Part shown: one piece after another, positions 45,375 to 63,076 of the stretch
Numbering within the stretch: position 1 is the stretch's first letter
Layout: the number at the start of each line of letters is the position of its first letter
NCBI RefSeq assembly: GCF_026314945.1
Contig: NZ_CP111121.1
Span: forward strand, 1,178,001 to 1,242,000
DNA length: 64,000 nt
Origin: Chryseobacterium fluminis
GTDB taxonomy: Bacteria > Bacteroidota > Bacteroidia > Flavobacteriales > Weeksellaceae
Direction: 5' to 3'
The notes under the pieces: generated by a model
What the model was told of the DNA's origin: nothing
What the model saw: the letters and a program-made list of their open reading frames with translations, nothing else
The model's database searches: none
Made by a program: the position numbers and the translations under genes

Positions 45375-45390
45375 ATCGTTTCTAAGACTT
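45375..45390 (-). repeat. Intergenic motif, copy 1 (diverged)
   Basis: ATCGTTTCTAAGACTT on the plus strand, a diverged copy of the consensus ATCGTTTTTTGAGATTT. It lies between the SUKH gene and the unknown gene at 45457. Confidence 0.45.
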
Positions 45391-45456
45391 AACTTTAAAA
45401 ATATATTTTGGTTTGTAAAAGCTTATTTTTCAAAAAGCTCTTTAATACTTTTGTAT

Positions 45457-46005
45457 TTACTTTTTCCAATCTAAAGTAGCAAGCCCATCCTTTTTACGTA
45501 GCTGACCGTTATTTGCTTTACCATTGACTAAAAAACGATGATCATCAAAACGGCAATCATAAGTACCCAGATAGCCCATCATGCCATAATGTAAGTAAGC
45601 ATAATGATGAAAGTCAGAGACCTGAAAAAAATATTCATGTTCGCCGATAACCTGCATTACTATGGTATCTGTTTTTTTAAATGCTGCAAAAGGGATTTGA
45701 ATGCTTACAGACTCATAAATTGCTTCTGGATGTGGAGATGTTAAAGTATCTCGCACAGCCATGCCTTGCCGTATAAGTAAAAACCTTACCTTGTTGACCT
45801 CCAAACTATCAAAGCCGGTTAATGTTACATAGGGCTTGCCGGTTACAAACTCAGTCTGTTCACAGATTTCAGAATATTTGACGGCATCTATCTTGGCCTG
45901 TTGTCGCCTTTTAGCTGCATCATAATTATACCATATTATTATGCTTATAATGCCTAAGAGCAAAATTCCCAAGATGATCGAACATCCTTTTAAATATTTA
46001 TTCAT
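45457..46005 (-). CDS. Membrane-anchored protein of unknown function
   Basis: 182 aa from the ATG at 46005 (MNKYLKGCSIILGILLLGII). One N-terminal membrane helix (about 8-28) is followed by an extracytoplasmic domain of about 150 residues rich in beta-type segments (VTLTGFDSLEVNKVRFLLIR, EYFFQVSDFHHYAYLHYG). Not recognised. Bounded on both sides by the 17-base intergenic motif (45375 and 46136), like a single-gene cassette. Confidence 0.75.
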   Translation of the reverse strand: MNKYLKGCSIILGILLLGIISIIIWYNYDAAKRRQQAKIDAVKYSEICEQTEFVTGKPYVTLTGFDSLEVNKVRFLLIRQGMAVRDTLTSPHPEAIYESVSIQIPFAAFKKTDTIVMQVIGEHEYFFQVSDFHHYAYLHYGMMGYLGTYDCRFDDHRFLVNGKANNGQLRKKDGLATLDWKK

Positions 46006-46135
46006 TACCCTTGTTATAATATGATTTAGAAACAAATTCCAAATATTAAGTACCTGTTTAATTTAAAGCTACTAACAATTTTTCGGTTAAATTAAACATT
46101 CTTTGGATGAACAGAATACACATAAGTCCTATATT

Positions 46136-46152
46136 ATCGTTTTTTGAGATTT
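46136..46152 (-). repeat. Intergenic motif, copy 2
   Basis: ATCGTTTTTTGAGATTT on the plus strand, exact consensus. It separates the genes at 45457-46005 and 46187-46561. On the minus strand GTTAGC occurs about 15 bases before it. Confidence 0.7.
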
Positions 46153-46186
46153 ACGAAGCTGCTGCTAACGTTTTATTTATCACCAC

Positions 46187-46561
46187 TTATTGCAAATCCT
46201 TCCCAACAGTCTTCTCTCTTGCATTAATTATGATATAAGTTAAATAGGTTAATATAAAAATCATCAGAGGAATTTGAAATGCTAAATAGTCGAACATTTC
46301 AATTGGAACTTGTAGCAACCTGCTAATGATTGGTGATAACATAAGTATAAAACTTAAAATAGTAATATTAGTACTGGTTTTCCATTTAATTAGGTTTAAA
46401 ATGATTCCTACAAGTCCAAATATAGCAAACAATTGGTCAATATTTCCAAAGTCAAAGGCTGTAAATATTAACCATATAATAAATGGGATTCCACTCATCC
46501 ATCCTGCCAAAATGATTAATAAATAAGAAATGATCGAGATCCACTTAATAACATTTTTCAT
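46187..46561 (-). CDS. Small four-helix membrane protein
   Basis: 124 aa with four membrane segments (about 4-26, 30-55, 60-85 and 88-112), for example ISYLLIILAGWMSGIPFIIW and IPLMIFILTYLTYIII. No recognised domain. Flanked by motif copies at 46136 and 46603. Confidence 0.7.
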   Translation of the reverse strand: MKNVIKWISIISYLLIILAGWMSGIPFIIWLIFTAFDFGNIDQLFAIFGLVGIILNLIKWKTSTNITILSFILMLSPIISRLLQVPIEMFDYLAFQIPLMIFILTYLTYIIINAREKTVGKDLQ

Positions 46562-46602
46562 CCTTGATGTTCGTTAACTTTATACATATTATGGTGAAAA
46601 CA

Positions 46603-46618
46603 ATCGTTTTTGAGAATT
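46603..46618 (-). repeat. Intergenic motif, copy 3
   Basis: ATCGTTTTTGAGAATT on the plus strand, one T shorter than consensus. It lies 42 bases upstream of the start of the gene at 46187-46561. Beyond it, read on the minus strand, AAAAGCACG and GTTGGCTAATAACGGC occur. Confidence 0.6.
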
Positions 46619-46796
46619 ATTAAATTATTTGAAGCCGTTATTAGCCAACTTTTTCGTGCTTTTATCTATTATAAAAATACTTTCCTAAACTTATAGATTA
46701 CTGTTTTTGTATAGCAACAAAATCTATTAATACTTATAAATTGAATAACAATAATTTACATAATAATGCAAAATTTATATTGTTTTAAATATTAAC

Positions 46797-48182
46797 TTAT
46801 CTTTTTATAAATTTTTCTTTAAAAATTTTTTCATCAGATGTTAGTGCTTCAATAACATATACACCAGTATCGAGGGAGGATAAATTTATTTTATTATTAT
46901 TAATATTCTGTACATCTTTCACCAATATCCCATTAATATCATAAATTTTAATATTTTTTATTTCTTTTGAGAAGTTTAAATATTCCGATACGGGATTAGG
47001 AAATATCTTCAGATGTTGAAATGAAGTAATTGCAGTTTCTGTACCTAGTAAAGAACATGGGCCTTTAATCATAGTTGGTATGAAATTATTTGAAAAGGTG
47101 CCGTTACCTAATTGTCCTCTATTATTATATCCCCATGTCCAAATAGAATTATCTTGTTTTCTTGCAATGCAATGACTTCCTCCACATTCAATATCTTGCC
47201 ATTCATATGAATTTCCGACTCGTGTCGGTACAAGTTTCTGCTGCATTGTACCATCCCCAAGTCTACCTTCATTTCGACCCCATGCCCATAAACTTCCGTC
47301 ATTTTTGATAGCAAAACTGCTTTCATTCGAAGTTCTTGCTTGTCTCCAATCATTATCAGTTCCGATTTGGGTAGGAATAATTTTATCTACTGTAGTACCA
47401 TCTCCTACCTGTCCATAACTATTACCTCCCCATCCCCATAAAGTTCCATCTGTTTTTAATGCTAGAGTATGACTAGATGATGAAATGTCTTTCCAAGTAT
47501 TTCCTGTTCCTATTTGAACAGGTAGGCTTGTACTGATAGTAGTTCCATTTCCCAAAGTTCCACCACCATTTGCACCCCAAGACCAAAGAGTTCCATCAGT
47601 TTTAATTGCTACTGTATGATATAAGCTTCCTGAAATATGTTGCCAATTTGTATCAGCTCCTACCTGAGTCGGCACTAATACATTAAATGGACTACTGCCT
47701 ACACCAACTTGACCATCTGAATTATATCCCCACCCCCAAAGTGTTCCGTCTGATTTAATTGCAAAAGAAGTTTCAAACCCCTTAAATATCTTGTCATAAG
47801 GTACTGTGTTTACTTGAGTTGGAACATAAATATAATTTGTAATACCACTGGAGCCATTGCCAAAAATTCCGTTAGAACCACTCCCCCATGCCCACAATGT
47901 TCCGTCATTTTTTTGAGCCATGGTGGTACGATAGTATGAAATTACATTCTTCCAATCGTTTGAAGTTGTAAGCTGGAAAGGAGTATTTCTATCCTGAAAA
48001 TTAGAAACTCCAAGACCTAATTGACCCGAATTATTACTTCCCCATTCCCAAATTGTCCCATCTTCACTTAGAGCAATGTTAGTATCCCAAACTGTCGAAA
48101 CTTTTTTAAAACATTGTGCATCTATAAAAGTATTATGTAATAAAAAGATGCTAGTACATAAAATCGTAAATTTATTTCTCAT
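46797..48182 (-). CDS. Secreted RCC1-repeat protein with type IX sorting domain
   Basis: 461 aa. Signal peptide (FTILCTSIFLLHNTFIDAQC), then seven RCC1-type blades of about 50 residues, each with a W-x-WG-x-N and GQLGxGT pattern (for example WEWGSNNSGQLGLG and WGGNSYGQVGDGT). The C-terminal 75 residues are a type A T9SS sorting domain (LKIFPNPVSEYLNFSKEI ... GVYVIEALTSDEKIFKEKFIKR). The protein is thus carried across the outer membrane and cleaved or anchored by the PorU machinery. It probably forms a seven-bladed propeller used for binding; partner unknown. Flanked by motif copies at 46603 and 48425. Confidence 0.93.
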   Translation of the reverse strand: MRNKFTILCTSIFLLHNTFIDAQCFKKVSTVWDTNIALSEDGTIWEWGSNNSGQLGLGVSNFQDRNTPFQLTTSNDWKNVISYYRTTMAQKNDGTLWAWGSGSNGIFGNGSSGITNYIYVPTQVNTVPYDKIFKGFETSFAIKSDGTLWGWGYNSDGQVGVGSSPFNVLVPTQVGADTNWQHISGSLYHTVAIKTDGTLWSWGANGGGTLGNGTTISTSLPVQIGTGNTWKDISSSSHTLALKTDGTLWGWGGNSYGQVGDGTTVDKIIPTQIGTDNDWRQARTSNESSFAIKNDGSLWAWGRNEGRLGDGTMQQKLVPTRVGNSYEWQDIECGGSHCIARKQDNSIWTWGYNNRGQLGNGTFSNNFIPTMIKGPCSLLGTETAITSFQHLKIFPNPVSEYLNFSKEIKNIKIYDINGILVKDVQNINNNKINLSSLDTGVYVIEALTSDEKIFKEKFIKR

Positions 48183-48799
48183 TTTCTAATTATATTAATT
48201 GCATAGATATTAAACAAATGCAATACTACAATATTTATATTAATAGAATTTACATTCTACTTTAATAATAAAGCTATATTTTTATTTTACATGCTAATTT
48301 GTTAACATCAACCGATATATTTCGACTAACGATGAAATACTCTGATGTTTAGGATTGGTGCATGGCAATTTATTTATATAATCTGGATTTGGGACTTCTA
48401 AAATTCTTAACTACTTGTTTATTGATCGTTTTTTGAGATTATTTATATCTATTATTAACGTTTCCAAGTTTGGTAATTGCAGCCATTCGAAGCGGAATTG
48501 CTCAACTAAATACAGGTCTCTCCAATCATAAATTTTATATTTCAGGTCATCTGATATAAATATCTACTGCAGAAAAACAGTTGATCATATGTTGTATACA
48601 CCTAACTTCAAGTCATACAGTTATATCGTTATTTAAGCTTTTTTTTAATGATAAATCCACTTAAGCTTTTCATCACTTTATTTAGATTATTACAGTGAAA
48701 AGTCTTTCATTTCAAAAAATTTCCTGAAATTTGCAGCCTGTACGTTAAAAAATAATGAATAGAATTTAAATCAAACATACATTAAACTTAAGGTAAGTT
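48183..48799. other. Intergenic region with a motif copy
   Basis: 617 AT-rich bases before the riboswitch. Besides the motif at 48425-48440 there is no convincing gene or hairpin. Confidence 0.6.
48425..48440 (-). repeat. Intergenic motif, copy 4
   Basis: ATCGTTTTTTGAGATT on the plus strand, 243 bases upstream of the RCC1 gene. On the minus strand AACGTTAATAATAG precedes it by about 8 bases. Confidence 0.7.
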
Positions 48800-48920
48800 T
48801 TCTTCGGGGCAGGGTGAGATTCCCTACCGGCGGTTACAGTCCGCGACTCCTTTCTTTTTGAAGGGACTGATTTGGTGAAATTCCAATACCGACAGTTACA
48901 GTCTGTATGGGAGAAGAAAA
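48800..48920 (+). promoter_or_regulatory. FMN riboswitch (RFN element)
   Basis: Contains the conserved RFN core: GGGGCAGGGTGAGATTCCC, CCGGCGGTTACAGTCCGCGA, a variable arm (CTCCTTTCTTTTTGAAGGGA), GGTGAAATTCCAATACCGAC and AGTCTGTATGGGAGAAGA closing the basal stem. It lies about 97 bases before ribB. FMN binding is known to stop expression of riboflavin genes at transcription or translation; the expression platform here was not resolved. Confidence 0.96.
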
Positions 48921-49016
48921 TGAAACACTCAGTGAGGCTATTTCGATAGACTCATTACTGTGTTGTATTTCATTTCCATGACCGAAGTGTATTTTAACTT
49001 TTTAAAGTAAAACAAC

Positions 49017-49667
49017 ATGGAAAAATTATTAGAAAAATTCGGAACAACTCCGAAAGAGCGTGTAGAAAAAGCACTTCTTACACTACAACAGGGAAAAGGA
49101 ATTCTTTTGGTAGACGATGAAAACCGTGAAAACGAAGGCGATATCATCTTTCCCGCCTCTACTATCACAGAAAAAGATATGGCACTTCTAATCCGCGAAT
49201 GCAGCGGAATTGTCTGCCTTTGCATTTCTGAAAAGAAAAGTAAGCATCTCAATCTGCGCCCGATGGTAGAAACCAACAATTCTAAAAATCAGACTGCATT
49301 TACAATTTCCATCGAAGCCAAAGAAGGTGTGGAATCAGGGGTTTCTGCTAAAGACCGGGTGACTACAATCCAAGCAGCCATTGCAGAAAATGCGTTAGCG
49401 GAGCATATTGCAAGTCCTGGACACGTTTTCCCCTTAATTGCTAAAAATGATGGCGTTTTTGAAAGACGTGGCCATACAGAAGGCAGTGTGGATTTAGTAA
49501 AGCTGGCTAATCTCGGGGATGATTCCGTACTTTGTGAACTCACTAACGAAGACGGAAGCATGGCAAGGCTTCCAGAAATTGCATTTTTTGCTGAAAAAAA
49601 CGGAATGACTGTCGTTACAATTGAAGATATCTATAGCTACAGAAAGATGATGATGAGCCAAAATTAG
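49017..49667 (+). CDS. ribB: 3,4-dihydroxy-2-butanone 4-phosphate synthase
   Basis: 216 aa, the length of monofunctional RibB (no GTP cyclohydrolase II domain). It converts ribulose 5-phosphate to the four-carbon precursor of riboflavin. Active-site loop [12 protein letters not shown] near residue 38-49, CSGIVCL near 60, and the substrate segment [28 protein letters not shown] with the catalytic His and Glu. Start ATG at 49017. Controlled by the FMN riboswitch upstream and closed by a strong terminator, so a single-gene unit probably boosting flavin supply. Confidence 0.97.
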
Positions 49668-49693
49668 TAAATAGAGATTTTAACGTACAGAGC

Positions 49694-49718
49694 ACCGTTC
49701 TTGAAGAACGGTTTTTTT
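49694..49718 (+). terminator. Terminator of ribB
   Basis: ACCGTTCTT-G-AAGAACGGT followed by seven T, 26 bases after the ribB stop. Confidence 0.92.
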
Positions 49719-49932
49719 ATATAATTTATTTAAAAATTAGCAGGCCTAATTGAAACTTTTTTAGTTATTTGAATTGTATAATAAATTTTTTACTGTCTTT
49801 AATCGATGTGTTCCAATGTGCAACATACTACTTTCATAAAATTGCAGGCAAGTATTCATCATTTTTTTAAATCAGGCTTTCTCCTATTCTTCAATATATT
49901 CTATACTATTCTTCTTTAGCCTCACATCTTAT

Positions 49933-49948
49933 TTTGTCCACTTCAGCA
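49933..49948 (+). promoter_or_regulatory. Shared upstream element TTTGTCCACTTCAGCA, first copy
   Basis: Located 58 bases before the start of the outer-membrane protein gene at 50007. It is nearly identical to TTTGTCCACTTCAACA at 52922-52937, which is 57 bases before the TolC gene. A likely site for the LytTR regulator encoded between them. Confidence 0.6.
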
Positions 49949-50006
49949 AAAATTTAAAGCATAATTAATTAGATGCAGGATACTTTTGCCTTACTAAAAA
50001 AAAAAT

Positions 50007-51011
50007 ATGTCAAAATCAGCTGTACTTAAAATTTTAATACTTTCTTTTCCTATACTATTTCCTGAATTTTATATGGGTCAGGAAAAAGACAGCATAAATT
50101 CAGATACTCCAACAGTATCCCAAAAGGTCGAAGAAGCGGTTAGCAATAAGTTTCCAATGGCAAGGCTGATCAATGTGGAGTATACACAGTCTATGCCTTA
50201 CAATTTTTCTTCTAAGTACTTGCAGGGTATTCTTCCTGAAGGTAAAGTAAATAATCTTTCAAGCGTTAAGATTTCATCCAATATAAATATCATACGGAAG
50301 AAAGACTGGTCTATGGGTGCAACATTGAATTATAATTATTTATCAGCAACGGTGGATGCGATCAACCCTTTTGACGTCAAACAAATTATAGATCAAGCAG
50401 AAGATTTTCATTATCATGCCACCTCGCTCAATGCTTCGTACTACTCAAAATTATTTAATAAAACTATGATTTATTCAGGAGTGGCAACCGTGGATGGAAG
50501 CAACAAAAATTTTGAAAGAGTAAGGGGGGTGGTCACGGCAACGATGGTATTGAAAGCAACTGCTGACACCAAAATGACCATTGGAATGGTGGGGCTTATA
50601 GACCCCAATGCAATTGTTCCGGCTTTTCTTTCATTTTCTTATGAGCATCATTTCAGCAACGGTATTGTAATCGATGCAATACTTCCAAAGTGGATGTACG
50701 TAAGAAAAAACATTTCTCATCTTGGAAGATTGTCTGTTGGGACGGAATTAGGAGGTACAATGTTTTATCTTTATAATAATGATCGAGCATACACTTTTTC
50801 GCAGTTGGATCTGAATTCAGGATTATTATATGAACACCGCTTAGGAAATTCATTTATTGCTTCATTAAAAACAGGAGTCAGGCTATCGCCATCTTCCAGA
50901 GTAATGGACAAGCAGGCATCTTTTAAAGATTATGTTTTAGATTCAAAGCCGGACCCTTCTTTCTACTTCAATGTAGGGATTTCATTTAATCCGTTTAAAG
51001 CGAAAAGATAG
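50007..51011 (+). CDS. Outer-membrane beta-barrel protein (DUF6268-like)
   Basis: 334 aa with a signal peptide (VLKILILSFPILFPEFYMGQ) and many alternating amphipathic strands ending in FYFNVGISFNPF, an aromatic C-terminal strand as in barrel proteins. The DUF6268-type pattern DWSMGATLNYNYLSATVD fits. Function unknown. It precedes a LytS-type kinase, a LytTR regulator and an efflux operon, and shares an upstream element with the TolC gene, so it is probably coregulated with efflux. Confidence 0.8.
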   Translation: MSKSAVLKILILSFPILFPEFYMGQEKDSINSDTPTVSQKVEEAVSNKFPMARLINVEYTQSMPYNFSSKYLQGILPEGKVNNLSSVKISSNINIIRKKDWSMGATLNYNYLSATVDAINPFDVKQIIDQAEDFHYHATSLNASYYSKLFNKTMIYSGVATVDGSNKNFERVRGVVTATMVLKATADTKMTIGMVGLIDPNAIVPAFLSFSYEHHFSNGIVIDAILPKWMYVRKNISHLGRLSVGTELGGTMFYLYNNDRAYTFSQLDLNSGLLYEHRLGNSFIASLKTGVRLSPSSRVMDKQASFKDYVLDSKPDPSFYFNVGISFNPFKAKR

Positions 51012-51070
51012 CATTATTAAATTTTCATAGATTTGTAACCTTCAGCCTATGTACTTAATAACTGACCCAC

Positions 51071-52117
51071 ATGAGCAATAACTTTGGCAAAAATGTTTTA
51101 AGAAGCAGCTTAAAGGAGATTTACATTAGTAATATAATCGTAAGCAGCATTGTCTGCGTACTCATATTTTCCTTTCTTTCCCTGATTTCGGATGCTACAT
51201 TAGGAATCACATTGCTGTCTTCTTTTATGACATTTTTATATATGTTAGTATGCAGCTATCTTCTCCACCGGATTCTACGTACATCTGCAAAATATTTTAC
51301 AGATGATATTTTGAAATTCAGACTTTTCAGATACACTTTAAGTTATTTTTCCGGCTTTGCTTTGTTTCTTTTGATTTATATAGGTACAAGCCCGTTCACA
51401 GAATTCAGACTACAATTATTATATCAAAAAGAGACCCTTCCCGTTTTCATTATTGAGAGCATTGTATTTACGACATTAATTATGATTTTTCATAATTTTG
51501 TTATTGTACAGTTGGAAAGAAATAATACAAAACTTGAAAATGCCAACTTAAAAGTTAAAAGTGCCGAAGCTGTAAATCTCTTGCTTAAGCAGCAGATTCA
51601 GCCTCATTTTTTATTCAACTCCCTCAATACAATGAAGGTCCTTTATAAAGAGGACCATCAGTTAGGAGAAAAATATCTTTTACTGCTTTCAGATTTTCTT
51701 CGGTCTACCATCGCTGAATCTCCGAACATCACAGCAACGCTACAGGAAGAACTCGCTGTTTTTGAGAATTACCTGCAGATGCAAAAAATGCGCTTCGGAG
51801 AAGCATTACAATGGAATATTAATATTGACGATGAGTCTTATCTCTTAAAAAGCTTACCCTCCTTCTCTTTACAGCCGTTAGCAGAAAATGCAATAAAACA
51901 TAATCATTTTTCCGTAAAACAACCGCTTATTATATCAGTAAACCAGCTGGATGAGCAGCTGATTATTTCAAATCCTATCCATAAGAAAAAATATTCGGAC
52001 CACTCCATAGGAAGCGGTCTTATTAATATTTCAGAACGCTACCAAATTCTCTCTGGCATTCCATTGCAGATTGAGGACAAGAATGACTACTTTGTTATAA
52101 GCTTTAAATTAAATTGA
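51071..52117 (+). CDS. LytS/YpdA-type sensor histidine kinase
   Basis: 348 aa. Four membrane helices in the first 155 residues without a large sensor domain, a short coiled coil, then a His_kinase domain with the phospho-acceptor in QQIQPHFLFNSLNTMK (His near 178). The ATP-binding region has LQPLAENAIKHN and GSGLINISERYQIL. It senses a membrane or small-molecule signal and phosphorylates the LytTR regulator encoded five bases downstream. Confidence 0.93.
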   Translation: MSNNFGKNVLRSSLKEIYISNIIVSSIVCVLIFSFLSLISDATLGITLLSSFMTFLYMLVCSYLLHRILRTSAKYFTDDILKFRLFRYTLSYFSGFALFLLIYIGTSPFTEFRLQLLYQKETLPVFIIESIVFTTLIMIFHNFVIVQLERNNTKLENANLKVKSAEAVNLLLKQQIQPHFLFNSLNTMKVLYKEDHQLGEKYLLLLSDFLRSTIAESPNITATLQEELAVFENYLQMQKMRFGEALQWNINIDDESYLLKSLPSFSLQPLAENAIKHNHFSVKQPLIISVNQLDEQLIISNPIHKKKYSDHSIGSGLINISERYQILSGIPLQIEDKNDYFVISFKLN

Positions 52118-52121
52118 TCCG

Positions 52122-52883
52122 ATGAAAATTGTAATCATAGAGGATGAACTGCTAATTGCCAATGATCTAAGCCAAACGTTGAGAGAGATTCATCCGGAAA
52201 TTGAAATCCAGGCATTATTACCCTCTGTAGAACTTGCAGTACAATTCTTTCAGACTTTTCCTACTGTGGATCTTATATTCAGTGATATAGAATTAGAAGA
52301 TGGTTTTAGCTTTGAGATATTTAAAAGCGTTAAAATTAATACACCTGTAATATTTTGTACCGCCTATGATGCGTATGCCTTAGAAGCATTTAAAGCGAAC
52401 GGTGTTGAATATATCCTAAAGCCGTTCAGTAAAACTTTGTTAGAAAAATCATTAAAGAAATTTGAATCATTAAGACATTCTTTAAATGAAAGCTTGTCAA
52501 GACAATATAAAGCGACTACCGAAGCTTTAGAAGCTTACCAAAAGAAGACAGTAAGCACACTAATGGTTAGATATCGAAATCAATTGATCCCGATCTCTTT
52601 CAGTAAAATATTTTTAATTTATATTGAAAATGACCTGACGTACATCTACACCACCCAACATCAGAAATATGTCGTACCCAATACGCTGGATGAGATGGAA
52701 AGTAAGGCAGGAGAAAGCTTTTTCAGGGTGAACAGACAGTTTTTGGTCAACAGAAATTCGGTCAGGGAAACTCACCATGCGCTGTACAGAAAACTCAGTA
52801 TTGTCTTTACCTTTGATTTTAACCGGGAAGTCCTGGTAAGCAAAGAAAAAACCAGTAAGTTTATCAGCTGGTTAAGTCAGTAA
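52122..52883 (+). CDS. LytTR family response regulator
   Basis: 253 aa. Receiver domain (about 1-120) with acidic pair IIEDE, phospho-acceptor Asp in DLIFSDIELEDG, and Lys in YILKPFSK. The C-terminal LytTR DNA-binding domain (about 150-250) has YRNQLIPISFSKIFLIYIEN and FRVNRQFLVNRNSV. Four bases separate it from the kinase. It probably activates the efflux genes through the TTTGTCCACTTCARCA element. Confidence 0.94.
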   Translation: MKIVIIEDELLIANDLSQTLREIHPEIEIQALLPSVELAVQFFQTFPTVDLIFSDIELEDGFSFEIFKSVKINTPVIFCTAYDAYALEAFKANGVEYILKPFSKTLLEKSLKKFESLRHSLNESLSRQYKATTEALEAYQKKTVSTLMVRYRNQLIPISFSKIFLIYIENDLTYIYTTQHQKYVVPNTLDEMESKAGESFFRVNRQFLVNRNSVRETHHALYRKLSIVFTFDFNREVLVSKEKTSKFISWLSQ

Positions 52884-52921
52884 TTTGCGGCTGCAATACC
52901 ATTTTGTAATTGAATGGCTAA

Positions 52922-52937
52922 TTTGTCCACTTCAACA
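52922..52937 (+). promoter_or_regulatory. Shared upstream element TTTGTCCACTTCAACA, second copy
   Basis: 57 bases before the TolC start; 15 of 16 positions match the copy at 49933. A weaker relative, TTTGTAACCTTCAGCC, is at 51033-51048 before the kinase gene. Confidence 0.6.
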
Positions 52938-52994
52938 TTTTATTCTATTTAATCAGCTTTCTCATCAAGTAATTTTGAACATTCATTCAAGATT

Positions 52995-54329: not shown

Positions 54330-54352
54330 TTGTGATCAGAATAACTAAACAA

Positions 54353-55423: not shown

Positions 55424-56178
55424 GCATATCAGAAATCGCTATAAAAAGACCTTTACTTATTGTGGTAATTTTCACCATACTTATCTTATTTGGTGCCCAG
55501 AGTTATCTTAATCTAAACTACAACCTCCTTCCCAAGATGGAAGTTAAAACAGTAAGCGTCAATGCACTTTATCCGGGCGCTTCAGCAGCAGAAGTTGAAA
55601 CCAACGTAACCAAAAAACTGGAAGATGCTCTATCATCTTTAGAGGGTCTTGACATTATCAGTGCCACATCACAGGAAGGAGCTTCGCAGATCAGTATCAG
55701 CTTAACAAGTAATGCAGATCTTGATAAAGCGGAAAGAGATGTTCAGCGCAAGGTTCAGCAGGCTATGAACACTCTTCCTGAGAACATTGAAGCACCTATT
55801 GTAAGCAAGGTCAATCTGGAAGAAATACCCGTCATCAACGCAGCTGTAACAGGTTCTATGTCTTCAAAAGAACTTTATAATTTGATTGATACCGATATCC
55901 TTCCTATCCTTCAAAATACGGAAGGCGTTGGACAGGTCAACATCATTGGAGGCGATGAGCGACAAATTCAGGTCAATATCGATCCTGAAAAACTTCGTTC
56001 GTATAATCTTGACATTACACAGGTAGCATTAGCCATCAACAATGCAAACAGATCATATCCTGCGGGAAATATCGAAACGGTTCAGCAGCAATTTGCTATT
56101 AAATTTGATGCGAATGTAACGTCTATTGAACAGATAAGAAATCTCATCGTTTCAAAAAAGGAAGATGGCGGAACAGTA
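55420..56178 (+). pseudogene. RND efflux pump permease, truncated at a chimeric junction
   Basis: The first 253 codons are a normal HAE1/AcrB-type pump: IAIKRPLLIVVIFTILILFG (first helix), NLLPKMEVKTVSVNALYPGA and periplasmic porter sequence up to LIVSKKEDGGTV. At 56172-56178 the sequence changes into the complement of a MocR-type gene. The plus-strand frame runs on as meaningless antisense to 56499. RND pumps need about 1020-1050 residues and twelve helices; only one helix remains, so this gene cannot work. Confidence 0.9.
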
Positions 56179-56699
56179 TCATCTTCAGACAATCTTCCCT
56201 CCATCACCAAAGACCATTTGGCTATGTTTCTTCTCAGGTTAATACTGCCCTGTGCCGGTTCAAATGCAGTACCGCTACCATCGAGACTTTTCATTATTTT
56301 AACCACTCCTTTGTTCAGTTTGGCTATGGGCAAAAGGCTTTCATCAGGAATACCTAAAGAAAACTGTTGTATGTTTTTATCTCTTAAAGAATCAAAAACT
56401 TTAAGCGTCAGATCTTCGGGAGTACTTTTGCGTTCGGATATTGCCGGATTACTAATAGCAGGAAGTGCAAGCTTCCTCCGGGAAGTCTTGCTGACATAGT
56501 AGCCTGATTTTGGGCGAGACTCTATAAGGGATTTGCTCTCCAATTCTGAAAAAGCCTGCTTTACAGTATTTAAACTAACATTGTACATCGTCTGTACTGT
56601 GCGTATTGAAGGTAATTTATCTCCAATTCTTAATGTTTCGGATATAATTTGTTCTTCTAAAACCCTTGCAATTTTCAGATAGAGAATTTCCCTTACCAT
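56172..56699 (-). pseudogene. MocR/GntR-type regulator, 3' part lost
   Basis: Starts at 56699. The N-terminal GntR winged helix (about 1-75) reads GDKLPSIRTVQTMYNVSLNTVKQAF and SKSLIESRPKSGYYV. The beginning of the aminotransferase-like domain has FSLGIPDESLLPIAKLNK and GSINLRRNIAKWSL up to LSEDDTV at residue 176. There it meets the RND gene, and the frame continues into antisense RND sequence to 56082. MocR proteins are about 470 aa, so the PLP-binding domain with its lysine is gone. Confidence 0.88.
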
Positions 56700-56950
56700 T
56701 TTATATATTTTGTCTTCTGTAATCTTATCAATACAAAAGTAGATCTAATTAAGGTGTAGAGAAAATAAATATAAATTCAGTTTTCTGGAGGCAGAAGGCA
56801 AATATCTCCAACTGGCCCACGCATATTACTTTGAATATAGAAACACTTGTGTAATGTGAGCAACTAGAAAAGGTTAAATATATTAGTTAAATAATTAATA
56901 TAACCAATATATTTAAATAATTAATTAGTAAGTTACCATTATAAAATACC

Positions 56951-57024
56951 CCAAACATTCAGCAAAATGCTTAATATTTATCAGTTTTATGAAATAATAA
57001 CGTTCTACACCAAACATTCAGCAA
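56951..57024. repeat. Direct repeat CCAAACATTCAGCAA, 59 bp apart
   Basis: CCAAACATTCAGCAA occurs at 56951-56965 and again at 57010-57024, each followed by a TGC three to four bases later. Immediately next to the 17-base motif copy at 57036. Could be part of the same recombination-like unit. Confidence 0.6.
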
Positions 57025-57035
57025 TTTGCATTCTA

Positions 57036-57052
57036 ATCGTTTTTTGAGACTT
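57036..57052 (-). repeat. Intergenic motif, copy 5
   Basis: ATCGTTTTTTGAGACTT on the plus strand, 34 bases beyond the stop of the YhcG nuclease gene. On the minus strand AAGTTATTAGAAAAC precedes it. Confidence 0.65.
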
Positions 57053-57085
57053 TATGAGGTGTTTTCTAATAACTTTACAATCAAC

Positions 57086-58099
57086 TTAGGATTCATTTTG
57101 TTTATCCTCAAAACTTTCTAACTCTTTATTTAATTCTTCTAATAATTGTTTTTCTGTTGGTAAGTACAGCTGATATTGACTTGCAATAATTTGTTTTTCG
57201 CCTTCTGGTAATGTAAATTTTACAACTGCATCATTCTTGTCTGCACATAACAAAATTCCGATAGTCGGATTTTCGTGCGGTAATTTCTCTTTACGGTCAT
57301 AATAATTGACGTACATCTGCAACTGGCCAATATCCTGATGTGTAAGCTTATGTGTTTTGATTTCGATTATAACAAAACATTGTAATAATCTGTTATAAAA
57401 AACCAGATCTACAAAGAATTCATCCCCTTCAAGATGTATTCTTTTTTGTCTTGCTACGAATGAAAAACCATTCCCTAATTCTAACAAAAAATCTTGTAAA
57501 TGTGTAATAATAGCATTTTCCAAATCTTTTTCATAATAGGAATTCTCTTTCTTTAATCCTAGAAATTCCAAGATCATGGGATCCTTGATGATTTCTTTTG
57601 CGTCAGATGGCAGCTTTTCATTTCTTGCTACTGCTAATACACCTTCTTTATTATTGCTTATTAAAAGTCGTTCGTATAAACTACTATAAATTTGTCTTTC
57701 CAATTGACGGACTGTCCAATTATTCTTTACTGTTTCTGCAATGTAGAAATCTATTTTATCCGGATTGTCAAGCCTTATAAGAATTTTGTATTGGCTCCAG
57801 CTCAATTGCGAATACACTGTATTCGCAATTGGAAATACGCGGTAAAACTGACGGAAAATTTCAATTTGTCTTTTAGAAAAACCAGTACCATATTCCGGTT
57901 CTAACTCTTCAGAAATATATTTGGTAAGAAACTTACCATAATCTGCACGGTCTTTCCCCTCTTGCTCCTCCTCAAAAATACGCTTACCAATACGCCAATA
58001 CATCATAGTGCGATGATGATCAATAGTGCGGATAGCATTATTCTTTGACTCTACTATGATGCTTTTTATATCGTTTATTATCACTCTGCTTATAGACAT
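57086..58099 (-). CDS. YhcG-type PD-(D/E)XK nuclease domain protein
   Basis: 337 aa. The N-terminal DUF1016 part (about 1-165) has YWRIGKRIFEEEQEGKDRADYG and FSKRQIEIFRQFYRVFP. The C-terminal PD-(D/E)XK nuclease (about 180-330) has Asp in GDEFFVDLVFYNR and the E-x-K pair in CFVIIEIKTHKLTHQDIGQL. All catalytic positions are kept. Family members are often found in defence islands and restriction-like loci, and some act on DNA; the exact role is unsettled. It is framed by motif copies at 57036 and 59562, with an IS3 element inserted between the start and the outer motif. Confidence 0.9.
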   Translation of the reverse strand: MSISRVIINDIKSIIVESKNNAIRTIDHHRTMMYWRIGKRIFEEEQEGKDRADYGKFLTKYISEELEPEYGTGFSKRQIEIFRQFYRVFPIANTVYSQLSWSQYKILIRLDNPDKIDFYIAETVKNNWTVRQLERQIYSSLYERLLISNNKEGVLAVARNEKLPSDAKEIIKDPMILEFLGLKKENSYYEKDLENAIITHLQDFLLELGNGFSFVARQKRIHLEGDEFFVDLVFYNRLLQCFVIIEIKTHKLTHQDIGQLQMYVNYYDRKEKLPHENPTIGILLCADKNDAVVKFTLPEGEKQIIASQYQLYLPTEKQLLEELNKELESFEDKQNES

Positions 58100-58184
58100 T
58101 ATTTGGTAATAGCTTTAATTTCAAGAATTGATAAAATTAGAAAAAGAAAAATAATTCCTATTATAATGTGTAATCTCACCCATC

Positions 58185-59117
58185 TTAAGTACACTTAAAA
58201 GTAGAGCTTTTAGTTAATAATTTATTGTTGTCGTTGTTAAAATTTTGTTGGAATGTGGGAAACTCGTTGGCCTTAGTTTGGGTTAGTTTTCCATATTTCA
58301 ATAAAAAATCCCTCGGCGTGAGGTATTGCAATGATTTGTGAGGCCGCTCATTATTATACATCCACATCCAAATTTCCGAATAATGTCTCATCTGACTGAT
58401 GTTCTCAAATAAATAAACATCTAAGAATTCTGTCCGAAAAGTTCTGTTGAATCTTTCTACCAAAGAGTTTTGCGTTGGTTTTCCAGGCTGAATATAATGA
58501 AGCGCGACTTCATTTTTATTGCACCAGTCTTTTAGTTTTTCAGCAATAAACTCTGGACCATTGTCAACTCTTATCTTTTCAGGTTTCCCACGCCAGTCGA
58601 TTAGTTGTTCCAGCTCAGAAACAACTCTTGCTGATGGTAAACTGGTGTCGATGGTAATATTCAAAATTTCTCTGTTAAAATCATCAATGATATTAAGGCT
58701 TCTAACGCTTTTACCATTCTCCAGAGTATCGTGCATAAAATCCATACTCCACGTTACGTTAGGATAAACAGGACGAAGCAAAGGCTCTTTCACCCTTGCC
58801 GGAAGCCGTTTCTTTCGTTTACTTCTTAGATTCAGTTTCATCGATTTGTAAATCCTGTAAACCCGTTTGTGATTCCACCCGAAACCCAAATTTCTCAAAC
58901 GGTGGTGCATTGTCCAAAATCCCCAGGTCTGATGCTGTTCTGCGAGCAAAATCAACTCCTCCCGAATCTTATCATCCTCATTATTTTTCTTTCTTTTATA
59001 ATAAAATACCGAACTGTTTATGATAAAAAGTCTACACGCATTCCGAATGCTTATTCCGTGTTCCGATCCGGAATAAACGACCAGTTCCCGCTTCTCGGAA
59101 GGTGTTAAAGCTTTTTT
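58185..59117 (-). CDS. IS3-family transposase OrfB
   Basis: The rve DDE integrase has D in VTWSMDFMHDTLENG, D in KIRVDNGPEFIAEKL and E in NSLVERFNRTF. HTH_21 precedes it (MHHRLRNLGFGWNHKRVYRIY). The frame is open upstream without its own good start, through KALTPSEKRELVVYSGSEHG, back to the slippery heptamer CTTTTTT (59111-59117; AAAAAAG on the coding strand). The enzyme is therefore made as an OrfAB fusion by -1 frameshifting. Confidence 0.92.
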   Translation of the reverse strand, partial: KKALTPSEKRELVVYSGSEHGISIRNACRLFIINSSVFYYKRKKNNEDDKIREELILLAEQHQTWGFWTMHHRLRNLGFGWNHKRVYRIYKSMKLNLRSKRKKRLPARVKEPLLRPVYPNVTWSMDFMHDTLENGKSVRSLNIIDDFNREILNITIDTSLPSARVVSELEQLIDWRGKPEKIRVDNGPEFIAEKLKDWCNKNEVALHYIQPGKPTQNSLVERFNRTFRTEFLDVYLFENISQMRHYSEIWMWMYNNERPHKSLQYLTPRDFLLKYGKLTQTKANEFPTFQQNFNNDNNKLLTKSSTFKCT

Positions 59118-59371
59118 GCAATCACATCTTTCATTACCACGTTTTCCAGCGTAAGTTCAGCCACGATCTTTTTATATTGTGAGAGTTCCTTTTCCAATTC
59201 CTTCATTTTAGAGAGTTGCTGCACATCCAAACCACCATATTTACTCTTCCATTTGTAAAATGTCGGCTGGCTGATCCCGTGTTCACGGCAAATCTCATTC
59301 ACGGTTCTTCCTTGATTTTGTTCAGCTAAAATCTTAATAATCTGAACTTCTGAAAATTTACTGTTTTTCAT
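59105..59371 (-). CDS. IS3-family transposase OrfA
   Basis: 88 aa HTH protein (SEVQIIKILAEQNQGRTVNE, then EICREHGISQPTFYKWKSKYGG) ending in a leucine-rich helix (LEKELSQYKKIVAELTLENVVM). Stops at 59105, just after the slippery A6G where ribosomes can enter the OrfB frame. Confidence 0.92.
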   Translation of the reverse strand: MKNSKFSEVQIIKILAEQNQGRTVNEICREHGISQPTFYKWKSKYGGLDVQQLSKMKELEKELSQYKKIVAELTLENVVMKDVIAKKL

Positions 59372-59561
59372 AGTATTCCAAATTTAAAAACTATATTTTT
59401 AAATGATACTGTTTTTGGGGAAGATTACAAATGTACATAAAGATTGGCTCTTTGTAAAGACATTTAAGTTTTGTAGAATATTTATCGTTCAAATTTAAAT
59501 ATAGATTTCTATTTAATATAAATAACCCAGTATATTTCATCTTTTTAAACTCTCCTGTTAG

Positions 59562-59578
59562 ATCGTTTTTTGAGATTT
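59562..59578 (-). repeat. Intergenic motif, copy 6
   Basis: ATCGTTTTTTGAGATTT on the plus strand, exact consensus, framed as TGTTAG-motif-AACA so that TGTTA and TAACA form a short inverted repeat around it. Confidence 0.7.
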
Positions 59579-59860
59579 AACAAATAAGGATATTAATTTT
59601 GCTTCAGTTACTAATATTTTCGGATAAAAATAACTTAGTAAAAATATAATAAGATTGTCAATAATGATTGTTGCAAAAATTAGACTCACGCATTACCTAA
59701 AGATTTATAAAATCTTTAGAAAAAATACTGTACATTTTATAAGTTACAAGCTTTATTAACCATATTGGTATGAAGAATACCTCTAATTTCACTTCTTTTT
59801 AACTAGCTTCAGCCGTAATCTTTTCTTGAGTTAACATTGATAGCATTTTATTTCCCAATT

Positions 59861-59900
59861 TCCGACATTTAAACACAAGTATCCGACATTTGAACACGAC
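59861..59900 (+). promoter_or_regulatory. 21-bp-phased direct repeat, candidate AraC operator
   Basis: TCCGACATTTAAACACAAG (59861-59879) and TCCGACATTTGAACACGAC (59882-59900), 16 of 19 identical, at a 21-bp step, 42 bases before the SDR start. In the gene's orientation the half-site resembles that at 21324 (TCTGCCATTAGCCTACAAA). Confidence 0.75.
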
Positions 59901-59942
59901 TACTCACTATAAATTTACCAGTTTTGTGGTAAAGAAAAAGAA

Positions 59943-60752
59943 ATGCAAGTATCATTAATTACGGGAGCAACTAGTGGAATAGGCGAAGCCCTTGCACGAA
60001 AGTTGGCTAAGAGAAAACGCAATTTACTACTAGTGGCCAGAAATGAACAGAAACTAAAAGAATGTTGTAGTGAATTGGCAATTATGTACGGGATCGAGGC
60101 ACATTACATTGTAGTGGATCTTAGTAAACCTGAAGCTGCAAATTTCGTATTTGAAGAAAGTAAAAGGAAAAAACTATCAGTTGATCTGCTTATAAACAAT
60201 GCAGGGATTGGTTCGAGCGGGGAATTTACACAAATGGAACTCCAGTCAGAACTTAAGCTTATCCAACTCAATATCGCATCTTTGGTATCTCTTTCACATC
60301 TTTTCCTGACAGAAATGAAAAATAGAAAGAGTGGTTCATTAATCAACATTGCTTCGATGACGGCATTTACCCCATTTCCATATATGGCTACCTATGCCGC
60401 CAGCAAGGTTTTTGTCAAGTCGTTTACGCAGGCAATTACTGAGGAATACAGGTCCTACGGAATTCAAGTGGTTTTGGCATGTCCGGGAGTGACGCGTACT
60501 AATTTCAATCATGCAGCGGGGTTGGACAATGAGAAAGCTAAGGCGTTAAGTTCTGAATACACAGAAAACACAACCCAAACCGCCGAAGAAGTAGCTATTG
60601 AAATTCTGAATGCATTTGACAGGAAAAAAACGTTTGTTGTTGCAGGTAGCAGAAACCGTTTTTTGAGAAAAATATTTTCGATAATACCTACTGCAACCTT
60701 CGTAAAATTTTTGGCAAACTCCTACCGCAAAAAAACAAATCAGAATTTGTAA
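59943..60752 (+). CDS. SDR family oxidoreductase
   Basis: 269 aa. TGATSGIGEALARKL near residue 7-21 is the cofactor motif, INNAGIGSSGEF follows at about 83, the catalytic Ser is in INIASMTAFTPFP, and the Tyr-xxx-Lys in ATYAASKVFVKSF. A C-terminal basic tail (FLANSYRKKTNQ) suggests membrane association, as in the DltE/Sco1803-like group. The AraC gene begins two bases after the stop, one operon. Confidence 0.93.
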   Translation: MQVSLITGATSGIGEALARKLAKRKRNLLLVARNEQKLKECCSELAIMYGIEAHYIVVDLSKPEAANFVFEESKRKKLSVDLLINNAGIGSSGEFTQMELQSELKLIQLNIASLVSLSHLFLTEMKNRKSGSLINIASMTAFTPFPYMATYAASKVFVKSFTQAITEEYRSYGIQVVLACPGVTRTNFNHAAGLDNEKAKALSSEYTENTTQTAEEVAIEILNAFDRKKTFVVAGSRNRFLRKIFSIIPTATFVKFLANSYRKKTNQNL

Positions 60753-60754
60753 AT

Positions 60755-61664
60755 TTGAACATGGATAATATCGAAAACGTTCATATTGAAACCATTGGGC
60801 AGCTGCATAAGCTTTTAGGTATATCCAAACCTAAGCATCCGCTTTTCAGTATCATTCGTTTCGAGGATTTCCCGGTAATTAAAATTGAACGAAGAACGAG
60901 GATGATCACCGATTTCTATCAGATCACGCTAAAAAAAGAACACCCTTGCAGAATACAATATGGGCAAAATATGTTTGATTTTGATGAAGGCATCATTTCC
61001 TGCTTTTCCCCGAAACAAGTAATTTTCCTGGACCAGAACTTTGAATTTGCCACTTCCGGATGGCACCTTTCGGTGCATCCAGACTTTTTCCGTTTACATT
61101 CTGTAGGGCAAAAAATAAAGGAATATGGCTTTTTCGACTATGCTGTAAGCGAAGCACTAATAATGTCTGAAGGAGAGCAGGATAATATGGAAGCTATTCT
61201 TAAGCAGATAGAAAAGGAAGCAAGCCTGCCGATTGATAAATTCAGCCATGACGTCATTATTTCGAATATTGACCTATTCCTGATTCATTGCAACCGTTAC
61301 TACAACAGACAGTTTTTGACAAGAAAAATCTTACAGCGAACTTTTAATTAGATTTGAACATGTGTTGAATATCAGTTTTTCGGAGAGGCATAAAGGTGTC
61401 CCAACGGTCAGTTCTCTGGCGTCCAAACTCAATCTTTCTCCAAAGTATCTCAGCGATTGTTTAAAACAGCTGACCGGACAGACCGTACAACAACATATAC
61501 ACGATAAGTTAATCGAAAAAGCCAAAGAAAAACTATCGACCACGGATCAGAGTGTCAGCGAGATTGCCTATGAATTAGGTTTTGAGTTCTCCCAATCGTT
61601 CAGTAAACTATTCAAAACAAAAACCAGCCTATCTCCAAAAGAATTTAGGCAGTCTTTTAATTAA
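60755..61664 (+). pseudogene. AraC family regulator, SDR-linked type, frameshifted
   Basis: Third paralogue of the AraC proteins at 19.5 and 23.9 kb. The N-terminal sensor (IQYGQNMFDFDEGIISCFSP, LSVHPDFFRLHSVGQKIKEY) ends at a stop at 61349-61351. The frame resumes from LLIRFEHVLNISFSERHKGV, then GVPTVSSLASKLNLSPKYLS and a complete HTH pair ending GFEFSQSFSKLFKTKTSLSPKEFRQSFN. The shift near 61343 separates sensor from DNA-binding part; a TTG at 61362 could start a stand-alone HTH protein. Starts two bases after the SDR stop. Confidence 0.85.
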
Positions 61665-61714
61665 CAAATAACACTGTGTATTTATAATTGAGATAGAATG
61701 TCAGTATTTATTGA

Positions 61715-61897
61715 TTTTCAGACGTGCATGCAGAGATCTCCTTCAACTTTCCGGATCTGATCAGCTTGATGGGCTGCCAGGTCTTATCTTACTTCAGGAA
61801 CTCACGTACTGGCGAGAATTTCAGGCGTGGACATCGCCTGGATATCTTTGGAGAAACCTTCCGGATGGATCAGCATCTTATTTTGAATAGATATTAA
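61715..61897 (+). pseudogene. Unidentified coding-like fragment
   Basis: 60 codons without a start: HAEISFNFPDLISLMGCQVL, then RTGENFRRGHRLDIFGETFR and a stop at 61895-61897. Composition is protein-like and richer in GC than the flanks, as for a 3' remnant of an imported gene. Not recognised. Confidence 0.3.
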
Positions 61898-61904
61898 TTT
61901 TTGG

Positions 61905-61920
61905 ATCGTTTTTTAAGACT
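61905..61920 (-). repeat. Intergenic motif, copy 7
   Basis: ATCGTTTTTTAAGACT on the plus strand, 11 bases beyond the stop of the 48-aa gene. Confidence 0.6.
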
Positions 61921-61930
61921 ATATTTCTAA

Positions 61931-62077
61931 CTACAAACTGAAGCTAAAGTTCCAGTTGATATTTCTATTCATACCCCAGGTTCCTGCATCTATCCCTTTT
62001 TCATACTTGACAAAAATAAGTAAGAATAAAACTATTATCGTTATTATTACTAAAATATAAAACCTCCTTTTCTTCAT
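61931..62077 (-). CDS. 48-aa single-span membrane protein
   Basis: Starts MKKRRFYILVIITIIVLFLL, a positively charged N-terminus and one membrane helix to about residue 24. A short outside tail containing KYEKGIDAGTWGMN ends at TAG (61931-61933). The ATG lies inside motif copy 8 (AAATCTCACAAAACGATG on the coding strand), and copy 7 follows the stop, so the gene fills one motif-to-motif interval of about 170 bases. Not recognised; may be a small toxin- or immunity-like peptide, by position only. Confidence 0.5.
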   Translation of the reverse strand: MKKRRFYILVIITIIVLFLLIFVKYEKGIDAGTWGMNRNINWNFSFSL

Positions 62078-62092
62078 CGTTTTGTGAGATTT
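62076..62092 (-). repeat. Intergenic motif, copy 8
   Basis: ATCGTTTTGTGAGATTT on the plus strand, one mismatch from consensus, overlapping the start codon of the 48-aa gene. Confidence 0.65.
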
Positions 62093-62249
62093 AATAGCAA
62101 TAGCAAAGTCCTTTGGCTTTGCGGGAGTTGCGGAAATTGAAACTGAGTTCGCTCGGCTAGATTAAACGAAGTTATGGAAAAGCACGTTCTGACAAGCACT
62201 ACAACAGCAATTTTGCAAAAGCACTGTTAGGCAGTTTTAGGGATTTTCC

Positions 62250-63050
62250 TCATTTATTAAAATCTTCAAATTTAATATTGAAATGGTAACTCATATCGTA
62301 TTGGTCTTTTAAAATTTTTGCAATATGAGCCTTTCCAATATCCGTAATACTTTCCCAATCATTTATGGCATCAAATTTTTTTAAGGTTTCTATATCTGAT
62401 GTCTCTAACAATACTTTTCTTTTTTCGAAACTATCATTCATATAAACATTAAAATTAGCTCCATTAAGCAATCGTAAATCTATATTCTCGCTACTGAAGA
62501 TTTTTGCAAAAATTTCTGAAATATTATCAATCTTAAGTGATTCTATTATTTCATTTTTTAAAAATCCAAGCTTATGTTGGCGACTATATTCCAAAGTCTG
62601 TTTTGAAATTCTTGCGGCTAAATCACCATTAAACGGATTGATAGTTTTGTCAAAACAATTAACTATAGCTTTCATCGTAGCTTCTTCAAAGTGTTCTGGT
62701 CGAGTGTCCAAAAAATGAATTCCAATATTTGTTATTTCAAATTTCAGAAAAGTTGTTTTTCCTTTTATTCCTGAAACATAATTTGTAAAAAATGTTAACG
62801 TTTCATCTACAATTGACCTGTGTCCAAAGTTGTAAGGAATTTGATTTTCACTTATGTTCCATAAAACCTCAGATCCATAATCAATATCGGTTTTCTGCAT
62901 AATTAATTCTATATGCGCATATCTATCGCTTCCGGTAAATTTTGCAACTAAACCTTTTCCTTCTATTGGCAATAAGTTCCATCCTAAAATTTTTTGATTT
63001 ATAGGGAATAAACTGGTGGATTGATAATTTCTTTTGAGATAGGTTTTCAT
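62250..63050 (-). CDS. 266-aa protein of unknown function, faint EF-G domain IV resemblance
   Basis: Soluble protein without signal or membrane segment. Residues about 45-135 (YAHIELIMQKTDIDYGSEVL, IPYNFGHRSIVDETL, then FLKFEITNIGIHFLDTRPEH) have the order of features of translation factor EF-G/TetM domain IV, including I-P-x-x-F and the I-x-x-x-x-H-x-x-D strand, but the match is weak. The C-terminal half (IVNCFDKTINPFNGDLAARI, IGKAHIAKILKDQYDMSYHF) is unassigned. The ATG at 63050 is nine bases after motif copy 9. Likely a cassette gene. Confidence 0.7.
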   Translation of the reverse strand: MKTYLKRNYQSTSLFPINQKILGWNLLPIEGKGLVAKFTGSDRYAHIELIMQKTDIDYGSEVLWNISENQIPYNFGHRSIVDETLTFFTNYVSGIKGKTTFLKFEITNIGIHFLDTRPEHFEEATMKAIVNCFDKTINPFNGDLAARISKQTLEYSRQHKLGFLKNEIIESLKIDNISEIFAKIFSSENIDLRLLNGANFNVYMNDSFEKRKVLLETSDIETLKKFDAINDWESITDIGKAHIAKILKDQYDMSYHFNIKFEDFNK

Positions 63051-63059
63051 TTATAGCCG

Positions 63060-63076
63060 ATCGTTTTTTAAGATTT
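63060..63076 (-). repeat. Intergenic motif, copy 9
   Basis: ATCGTTTTTTAAGATTT on the plus strand, one mismatch from consensus, between the genes at 62250-63050 and 63088-63342. Confidence 0.65.

Follow-up and report, generated by a model that had tools for sequence, protein, structure and literature searches.

The window analysed here, a 64,000-nt stretch of the Chryseobacterium fluminis genome (G000, 5.07 Mb; array contig C2), carries from position 46136 onwards a row of genes separated by copies of a short motif, ATCGTTTTTTGAGATTT (Table 1). On the + strand, each copy consists of the dinucleotide AT followed by the half-site CGTTTTTTGAGA, and the coding strand reads TCTCAAAAAACG-AT; written in full, a site is arbitrary DNA-AT-CGTTTTTTGAGATTT. 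We propose, with a probability of about 0.85, that this part of the window belongs to a cassette array of integron-like character, with a small serine recombinase of the Gin/Hin type as its enzyme.

When up to 3 mismatches were allowed, the window gave 8 matches to the motif, all on the + strand and none ahead of 46136. This agrees with a previous sequence-only reading of the window, which had described a uniformly oriented motif missing from the first 45 kb. Dinucleotide shuffles of the window gave a mean of 1.13 matches and a maximum of 4, and 0 of 100 reached 8. Among the nine coordinates listed by that reading, seven were recovered (46136, 48425, 57036, 59562, 61905, 62076 and 63060) and 46603 is a copy shorter by one T, while 45375 (ATCGTTTCTAAGACTTA, 5 mismatches) is indistinguishable from chance. 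The eighth match, at 48625, was absent from that list, scores only 10.6 on our first matrix and is probably a chance occurrence. The sites are intergenic or lie at a start codon, as had been noted; at 62076, the AT of the motif is the AT of the start codon of a 48-aa (amino acid) gene. Two cassette proteins of the window were recognised, one with RCC1 repeats and a sorting tail and the other a YhcG nuclease; Pfam gave no match for five more and for one neighbour. The homologue of the YhcG cassette in another genome (G032) begins at the identical motif base, and the insertion sequence lodged in the window copy is, by its look, presumably of the IS3 type. The array is interrupted by a ribB-efflux block, as previously observed, and runs beyond the window to about C2:1255655 (window coordinate 77655).

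Table 1. Putative cassette sites, genes and arrays, in window coordinates unless preceded by C2
Feature	Coordinates	Strand	Remarks
Cassette site	46136..46152	+	Exact consensus (motif match); putative exchange point in the first two bases (AT), then half-site CGTTTTTTGAGA
Gene of cassette 46136-46602	46187..46561	-	124-aa protein, no Pfam or PADLOC match
Cassette site	46603..46618	+	One T shorter; 5-T class 9:0 in orientation
Gene of cassette 46603-48424	46797..48182	-	461-aa RCC1-repeat protein with Por_Secre_tail
Cassette site	48425..48441	+	1 mismatch; ribB-efflux block fills the next 8.6 kb
Cassette site	57036..57052	+	1 mismatch
Gene of cassette 57036-59561	57086..58099	-	YhcG/DUF1016 nuclease; also PADLOC candidate PDC-S02
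Insertion sequence inside cassette 57036-59561	58185..59371	-	99.9% copy at C2:5053467-5054729
Cassette site	59562..59578	+	Exact consensus
Cassette site	61905..61921	+	3 mismatches, matrix score 22.1
Gene of 171-bp cassette 61905-62075	61931..62077	-	48-aa protein; ATG borrows the AT of the next site
Cassette site	62076..62092	+	1 mismatch, T/G variant
Gene of cassette 62076-63059	62250..63050	-	266-aa protein; unit also in array B
Cassette site	63060..63076	+	1 mismatch
Two genes of the cassette from 63060 to 64091, beyond the window end	63088..63895	-	84 aa and 163 aa
Array A (the window's array)	C2 1224-1254 kb		8 copies with at most 1 mismatch
Array B	C2 2370-2399 kb		6 copies with at most 1 mismatch
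Array D	C2 4955-5060 kb		5 copies with at most 1 mismatch
Recombinase, head of array D	C2:4952173-4952775	+	201 aa; array end read
Recombinase, head of array B	C2:2404103-2404696	-	92% identical to that of D

Motif distribution and shared units

At the same threshold of 3 mismatches, the whole G000 genome holds 74 + 73 matches compared with 25 + 37 for the reversed pattern, and the 19 copies with no more than 1 mismatch are all confined to three regions of C2 (arrays A, B and D), each with a single orientation. The motif is not spread in front of core genes, the distribution that had been named beforehand as pointing to a promoter or leader element; such an element is ruled out by the restriction of the motif to arrays and by the shared units that end there. 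A matrix trained on arrays A, B and D plus 20 stretches from other genomes (23 regions in all) recognised 168 sites, and 1 when reversed. Alignment of 166 sites on the motif revealed conservation of its 16-17 bp alone, with weakly AT-rich flanks; the GTTA-containing segment that was thought to precede it on the coding strand lacks conservation at a fixed distance. In a later set of 56 merged array regions (1.20 Mb, 268 sites), strict copies with six, five and seven T residues number 154, 9 and 5 in array orientation and 0 in the opposite one. Exact copies of ATCGTTTTKTGAGAYT are present in 89 of the 148 Chryseobacterium genomes of a genus survey and in 15 of 296 genomes sampled from the order: 14 of 29 Chryseobacterium and a single one (G320) of 20 from the remaining genera of the family, with none among the 247 others.

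The 216 units between neighbouring sites have a median length of 1134 bp. In the 180 units below 3 kb, the longest open reading frame (ORF; at least 40 aa) reads toward the unit's own site in 140 cases and away from it in 28, and 12 units have none. As in integrons, the arrays are tandem, one-directional and made of mostly single-gene units, each with a site.

Units are shared between arrays. The window unit 62076-63059 recurs in array B (C2:2392505-2393488) with 99.2% identity over 1017 bp, and both copies start at the first motif base, with different neighbours. A comparison of the 56 regions, in which genomes are species representatives, gave 1205 matches of at least 150 bp, of which the 839 oriented ones were examined. 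Both copies have a motif within 40 nt at 53 left ends, 26 of which fall exactly on base 0, and at 35 right ends, 25 of which fall between +13 and +16, where the conserved block ends. Randomly shifted motif positions (50 rounds) gave a mean of 0.02 left ends and 0 right ends, and the majority of the matches end away from motifs. The loci L133 (genome G135) and L134 (G115) have 96.7% and 99.6% identical stretches that run from the head site, described below, to the AT of a site and diverge beyond; within the shared stretch, L134 has ~217 bp extra relative to L133, with no recognised site in it. Likewise, arrays headed by recombinases of two different clades, F2 and F1 (L068 or L076 with L081), share a 92% identical match that ends at the motif. 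Alike units stand between different neighbours, with homology starting and stopping at the motif. This variation, together with the clustering of the motif and its single orientation, bears out the earlier suggestion of cassette-like units with a common border.

Some features near the arrays deserve mention. Units of ~0.7-1 kb, 84-96% identical, occur in tandem and in dispersed copies near B and D (C2:2345959-2347778, 2361-2372 kb, 5031-5032 kb and 5058-5059 kb). Just left of array A, beside the doubtful site 45375, lies the gene of a SUKH/SMI1-KNR4 protein (window 44828-45331, -), a family known for toxin immunity. In the block interrupting the array, a flavin mononucleotide (FMN) riboswitch (window 48796-48922, +; 113 bits) precedes a ribB-like gene (49017-49667, +) and the efflux genes. 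Comparison of the DNA from 44.5 to 49.5 kb with plasmids gave 21 records; among the 20 listed, matches cover 2-7% of the query and concern the ribB/FMN-riboswitch part only.

The exchange point

Pairs of junctions sharing one unit were used to locate the exchange (47 pairs for the left and 27 for the right side, partly non-independent since some cassettes recur). In the 47 pairs with the same right-hand unit, identity is 0.26 at position -1 (0.28 in random site pairs), then 0.96 at base 0, 0.91 at base 1 and 0.98 at base 2, against 0.83 in random pairs. The 27 pairs with the same left-hand unit behave in the opposite way, with 0.96 at -1 (random 0.28) and 0.96 and 1.00 at bases 0 and 1, followed by a drop to 0.63 at base 2 (random 0.83) and lower values further in: 0.52 at base 8 (0.66), 0.59 at 14 (0.61) and 0.15 at 17 (0.38). 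Because pair identity switches on both sides of the AT, the exchange is placed, on comparative grounds, within these two bases at the motif start. Such a 2-bp central overlap, deduced here from the junction pairs, is that of small serine recombinases. Passages of two papers on serine recombinases describe a 2-bp staggered cut and, when overlaps differ, at most traces of recombinants (PMC4817059, PMC11607074), and the Gin pseudo-core is given in part of another as NNNNAAASSWWSSTTTNNNN, cleaved at the central dinucleotide (PMC5175349). Centred on AT, the cassette motif AT-CG-TTT has the pattern WW-SS-TTT and fits one half, the right, of the Gin core (WWSSTTT). Cassette sites show no conservation of the other half, AAASS: positions -1 to -14 display AT-richness only (268 sites) and the second, inverted half-site of DNA invertases is missing. 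The outer part of the site may also resemble the arms of hix and gix sites.

A small serine recombinase at array heads

The recombinase encoded at the heads of arrays B and D matches Resolvase PF00239 only (2e-44). Its best solved-structure matches are the DNA-invertase chains 4m6f and 3uj3 (E 7e-45), which we take to be Gin of phage Mu. The alignment spans residues 1-147 and includes VSTxDQN and LDRLGRS, in keeping with the conserved serine and arginine motifs of a Resolvase catalytic domain. A tyrosine recombinase near an array end, which the sequence-only reading had suggested looking for, is thus replaced by a small serine recombinase at the heads; none of the eight PF00589 genes of G000 lies in arrays A or B, and one is found ~2 kb before the head of D.

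Homologues of this recombinase at E 1e-40 or better occur in 60 of the 148 genomes. Examination of 44 loci (40 fetched stretches, part of the places listed, plus B, D, L076 and L068) revealed 176 motifs downstream in the cassette direction and 0 in the opposite one, and a downstream motif is present in 36 of the 40 whose downstream DNA reaches 5 kb or more. Ten loci chosen from 43 named ones (4 Chryseobacterium, 4 Sphingobacterium, 1 Epilithonimonas and 1 metagenome-assembled genome of Flavobacterium) gave 18 motifs versus 0 opposite, with 3 of the 10 lacking a downstream motif. In a tree whose bootstrap had not settled, the clades F1 (30 rows) and F2 (11 rows) received 100/100 support each. 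The exact motif is present in 38/38 F1 genomes, defined by a recombinase match of at least 75% identity, versus 51/110 genomes without F1 (Fisher 7e-11); the 11 F2 genomes were hand-picked from weaker matches.

The heads have a conserved start of their own. In 31 F1 heads, homology sets in at GT-[G/A]GTATTTTGAGATTTT or a near variant, ~128 bp ahead of the start codon; AACG often precedes this point, and an inverted TTTTCTCAAAATCTC-GT-ATCA lies further in. The homology ceases roughly at the stop codon, where no clear site is visible. F2 heads start at CGGTCGGTTT or similar. The overlap of the head site is GT versus AT in cassette sites, and the two kinds of sites face each other. Under the overlap rule, this difference between GT and AT would keep them from recombining together. 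In Sphingobacterium, the head sites seem to have two arms, and candidate cassette sites read AA-C(A/C)TTTTTTGAGA. A search for empty sites with two head flanks in the 148 genomes matched 5 and 2 genomes, mostly beside other recombinase heads and none of them clean.

Recombinase heads are also found on plasmids of C. shandongense and C. balustinum, with 2 and 1 downstream sites in the cassette direction. Behind the recombinase of the C. shandongense plasmid (L239, 20001-28928) lie a restriction endonuclease gene and two genes annotated as Abi (abortive infection) family, which suggests a defence cargo. No downstream site in the cassette direction was seen beside relatives (70-84%) on plasmids of Sphingobacterium faecium, Rhizosphaericola mali and Emticicia oligotrophica, the last carrying one weak site in the opposite direction (score 14.2). 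The small S. faecium plasmid pWB1 (L236, 10359-10964) combines an 83% identical recombinase and a head site with several annotated resistance genes; a scan of this plasmid recognised no cassette site. Tyrosine integrase-like genes lie upstream of two heads, that of D (L042:7304-8557, +) and one in G042 (L141; judged by eye from translated letters), and some platforms may therefore ride on integrative elements. One genome, G028, has 7 recombinase homologues, and the loci L179-L182 encode Gin-like recombinases of ~50% identity in the genus with no evident array. A crude k-mer search for array motifs behind 44-53% identical recombinases of other Bacteroidota and of non-head loci in the genus (20 regions, 19 with the gene) found none comparable; as a control, the known motif stood out in three of four known arrays and drew level with other words in the remaining one. 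The repeats seen in L163 and L164 have the appearance of tandem repeats in coding sequence.

Mechanism, alternatives and known systems

Genome comparison itself reveals the motif and its polarity, units shared as cassettes, a two-base exchange point and a recombinase gene at array heads. From there we infer exchange by this recombinase, a circular intermediate and a role for the head site. A cassette would consist of a gene, sometimes more than one, and a 3′ recombinase half-site of 12 bp beside the two-base crossover AT, the second arm being whatever DNA follows. Two sites, in one array or in a circle and an array, would be cut at AT with a 2-bp stagger and rejoined, and a cassette would thereby exit as a one-site circle or, always in the same direction, enter at a site. 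In complete arrays, the enzyme gene occupies the 5′ head, behind the conserved GT-overlap head site. Where an array has no such gene, as in the window, the recombinases encoded at arrays B and D would act on it in trans, or the array would be a relic; such arrays look like integrase-less cassette clusters. Of the eight PF00239 matches in G000, those not at array B or D lie far from A, and in G112 a broken piece of the recombinase is found on the head side of two sites.

More tentatively, the recombinase may need one specific half-site and take almost any AT as partner, in which case the system would create cassettes itself; we consider this a possibility somewhat short of even odds. At six junctions, a 3′ piece of the recombinase gene is joined directly to a site, with AT at the joint, at four gene positions (nt about 140, 146, 321 twice and 486 twice). 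These junctions fit recombination between one true site and an arbitrary AT, six cases in one gene being few. If true, recombination with one half-site would be a built-in route of cassette birth.

Several observations weigh against a cassette system driven by the head recombinase. The window's own array has no resolvase gene within 100 kb, and the draft genomes G090, G018 and G104 contain arrays with zero PF00239 matches. Conversely, 4 of the 40 loci (L119, L128, L148 and L156, the last also devoid of a head site) have no downstream motif, and in some loci the first motif comes kilobases past the recombinase gene. At least one motif is still carried by 51 of the 110 genomes without F1, and the two distant clades F1 and F2 both head arrays with one motif. 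No attI-like entry site adjoining the recombinase gene was found, nor any cassette site directly after the gene. The AT overlap is palindromic, so the fixed direction is unexplained by the overlap itself, and pairs with the same left-hand unit have 0.89 identity at base 3 versus 0.74 at random, contrary to the pattern of the neighbouring bases. Finally, the ORF reads away from its own site in 28 of 168 units, and 3 of the 168 matrix sites are oppositely oriented (two head sites and one at the far end of region B).

As an alternative, another, unlinked recombinase would move the cassettes, with the serine recombinase as a passenger settling at array heads. Arrays with no resolvase gene nearby and the presence of two recombinase clades at the heads of one-motif arrays speak for it, but this explanation is unlikely in view of the strict head position and polarity (176 versus 0), the 2-bp exchange point with a Gin-like half-core, head sites built from the same half-site as cassette sites and the motif in all 38 F1 genomes. 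A true integron or a CALIN (cluster of attC sites lacking integron-integrases), in which a tyrosine IntI acts on folded attC sites, would have the same layout of tandem, one-directional and mostly single-gene units, with a site at the gene 3′ end and a recombinase at the head. It is nevertheless very improbable, since the exchange lies within a 2-bp AT, the head gene belongs to PF00239 and the PF00589 genes of G000 are placed as described above. Moreover, folding of the motif flanks, which the sequence-only reading had advised predicting, disclosed no attC-type hairpin: an inverted partner of the motif core within 140 nt (at least 11/14) was present at 3 of 261 sites, compared with 4 on the other side and 4 in shuffles, and the mean fold z was 0.07 (60 sampled sites, simple shuffle).

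Two further explanations were weighed. In one, homologous recombination takes place at short dispersed repeats and the motif is a terminator, a promoter or a protein-binding site. The motif is indeed a dispersed direct repeat and T-rich tracts are common near gene ends, yet 16 bp is short for homologous exchange, which would moreover scatter over these 16 bp, whereas the bases after the AT stay here with the right-hand unit; given also the confinement of the motif to arrays, we give this explanation almost no weight. The other, a head-to-tail series of inserted one-ended transposons (IS91/ISCR, IS200/605 or Helitron-like), would account for a single conserved end per unit. Its probability is close to negligible, as this end has neither fold nor inverted repeat, the units abut with one AT in common and most of them consist of one short gene oriented toward the site with no recognised transposase (family scan of the window cassette genes).

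The proposed serine-recombinase arrays share with integrons a recombinase gene at the head, one-directional tandems of mostly single-gene units, a 3′ site, an accessory content and the existence of enzyme-less arrays. The attC sites of integrons act in folded form. A published definition of the integron includes a tyrosine integrase and attC sites among its components (PMC8618304), and neither such an integrase nor folding sites are found here. The head enzyme is a serine recombinase (by its PF00239 match only, no IntI-specific model having been applied) while IntI is a tyrosine recombinase; the exchange takes place within a 2-bp AT in a short, one-armed site that has no hairpin, no clear attI was found beside the gene, although a conserved head site lies upstream of it, and the recombinase gene reads in the cassette direction. 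The likeness to Gin/Hin invertases resides in the solved-structure matches, the fit of the half-site to the Gin core and the central 2-bp exchange. However, the known gix and hix sites are two-armed and the reaction inverts one segment, while here one arm is arbitrary, many sites follow each other in direct order and shared units keep their direction relative to the site. Shufflons and the Min system of p15B also provide one recombinase with many sites, but they shuffle parts of one gene by inversion, whereas whole, diverse genes are shared here among arrays and species in one direction. Serine recombinases also move the staphylococcal cassette chromosome (SCC) with Ccr, which differs by the large size of its elements, its single locus and its large serine recombinases. 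The pdif modules of XerCD are likewise bounded by short sites, but these are two-armed 28-bp sites used by tyrosine recombinases.

To conclude, we propose that the system functions like an integron with an unrelated enzyme and an unrelated DNA site. A literature search covering titles and abstracts, with preprints and most subscription journals outside it, gave no account of serine-recombinase cassette arrays. For the phylum to which Chryseobacterium belongs, IntegronFinder 2.0 reports one complete integron, that of Salinibacter, and there are others across the broader Bacteroidetes/Chlorobi group (PMC9024848). If our reading is true, the arrays would represent a second, independent invention of the gene-cassette array, and a DNA-invertase-type enzyme could drive gene capture with a short, one-armed and double-stranded site. 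Besides, it would offer a testable path from an ordinary gene to a cassette and a compact recombination tool. It would also account for accessory-gene clusters of Chryseobacterium that a search based on IntI and attC would be expected to miss.

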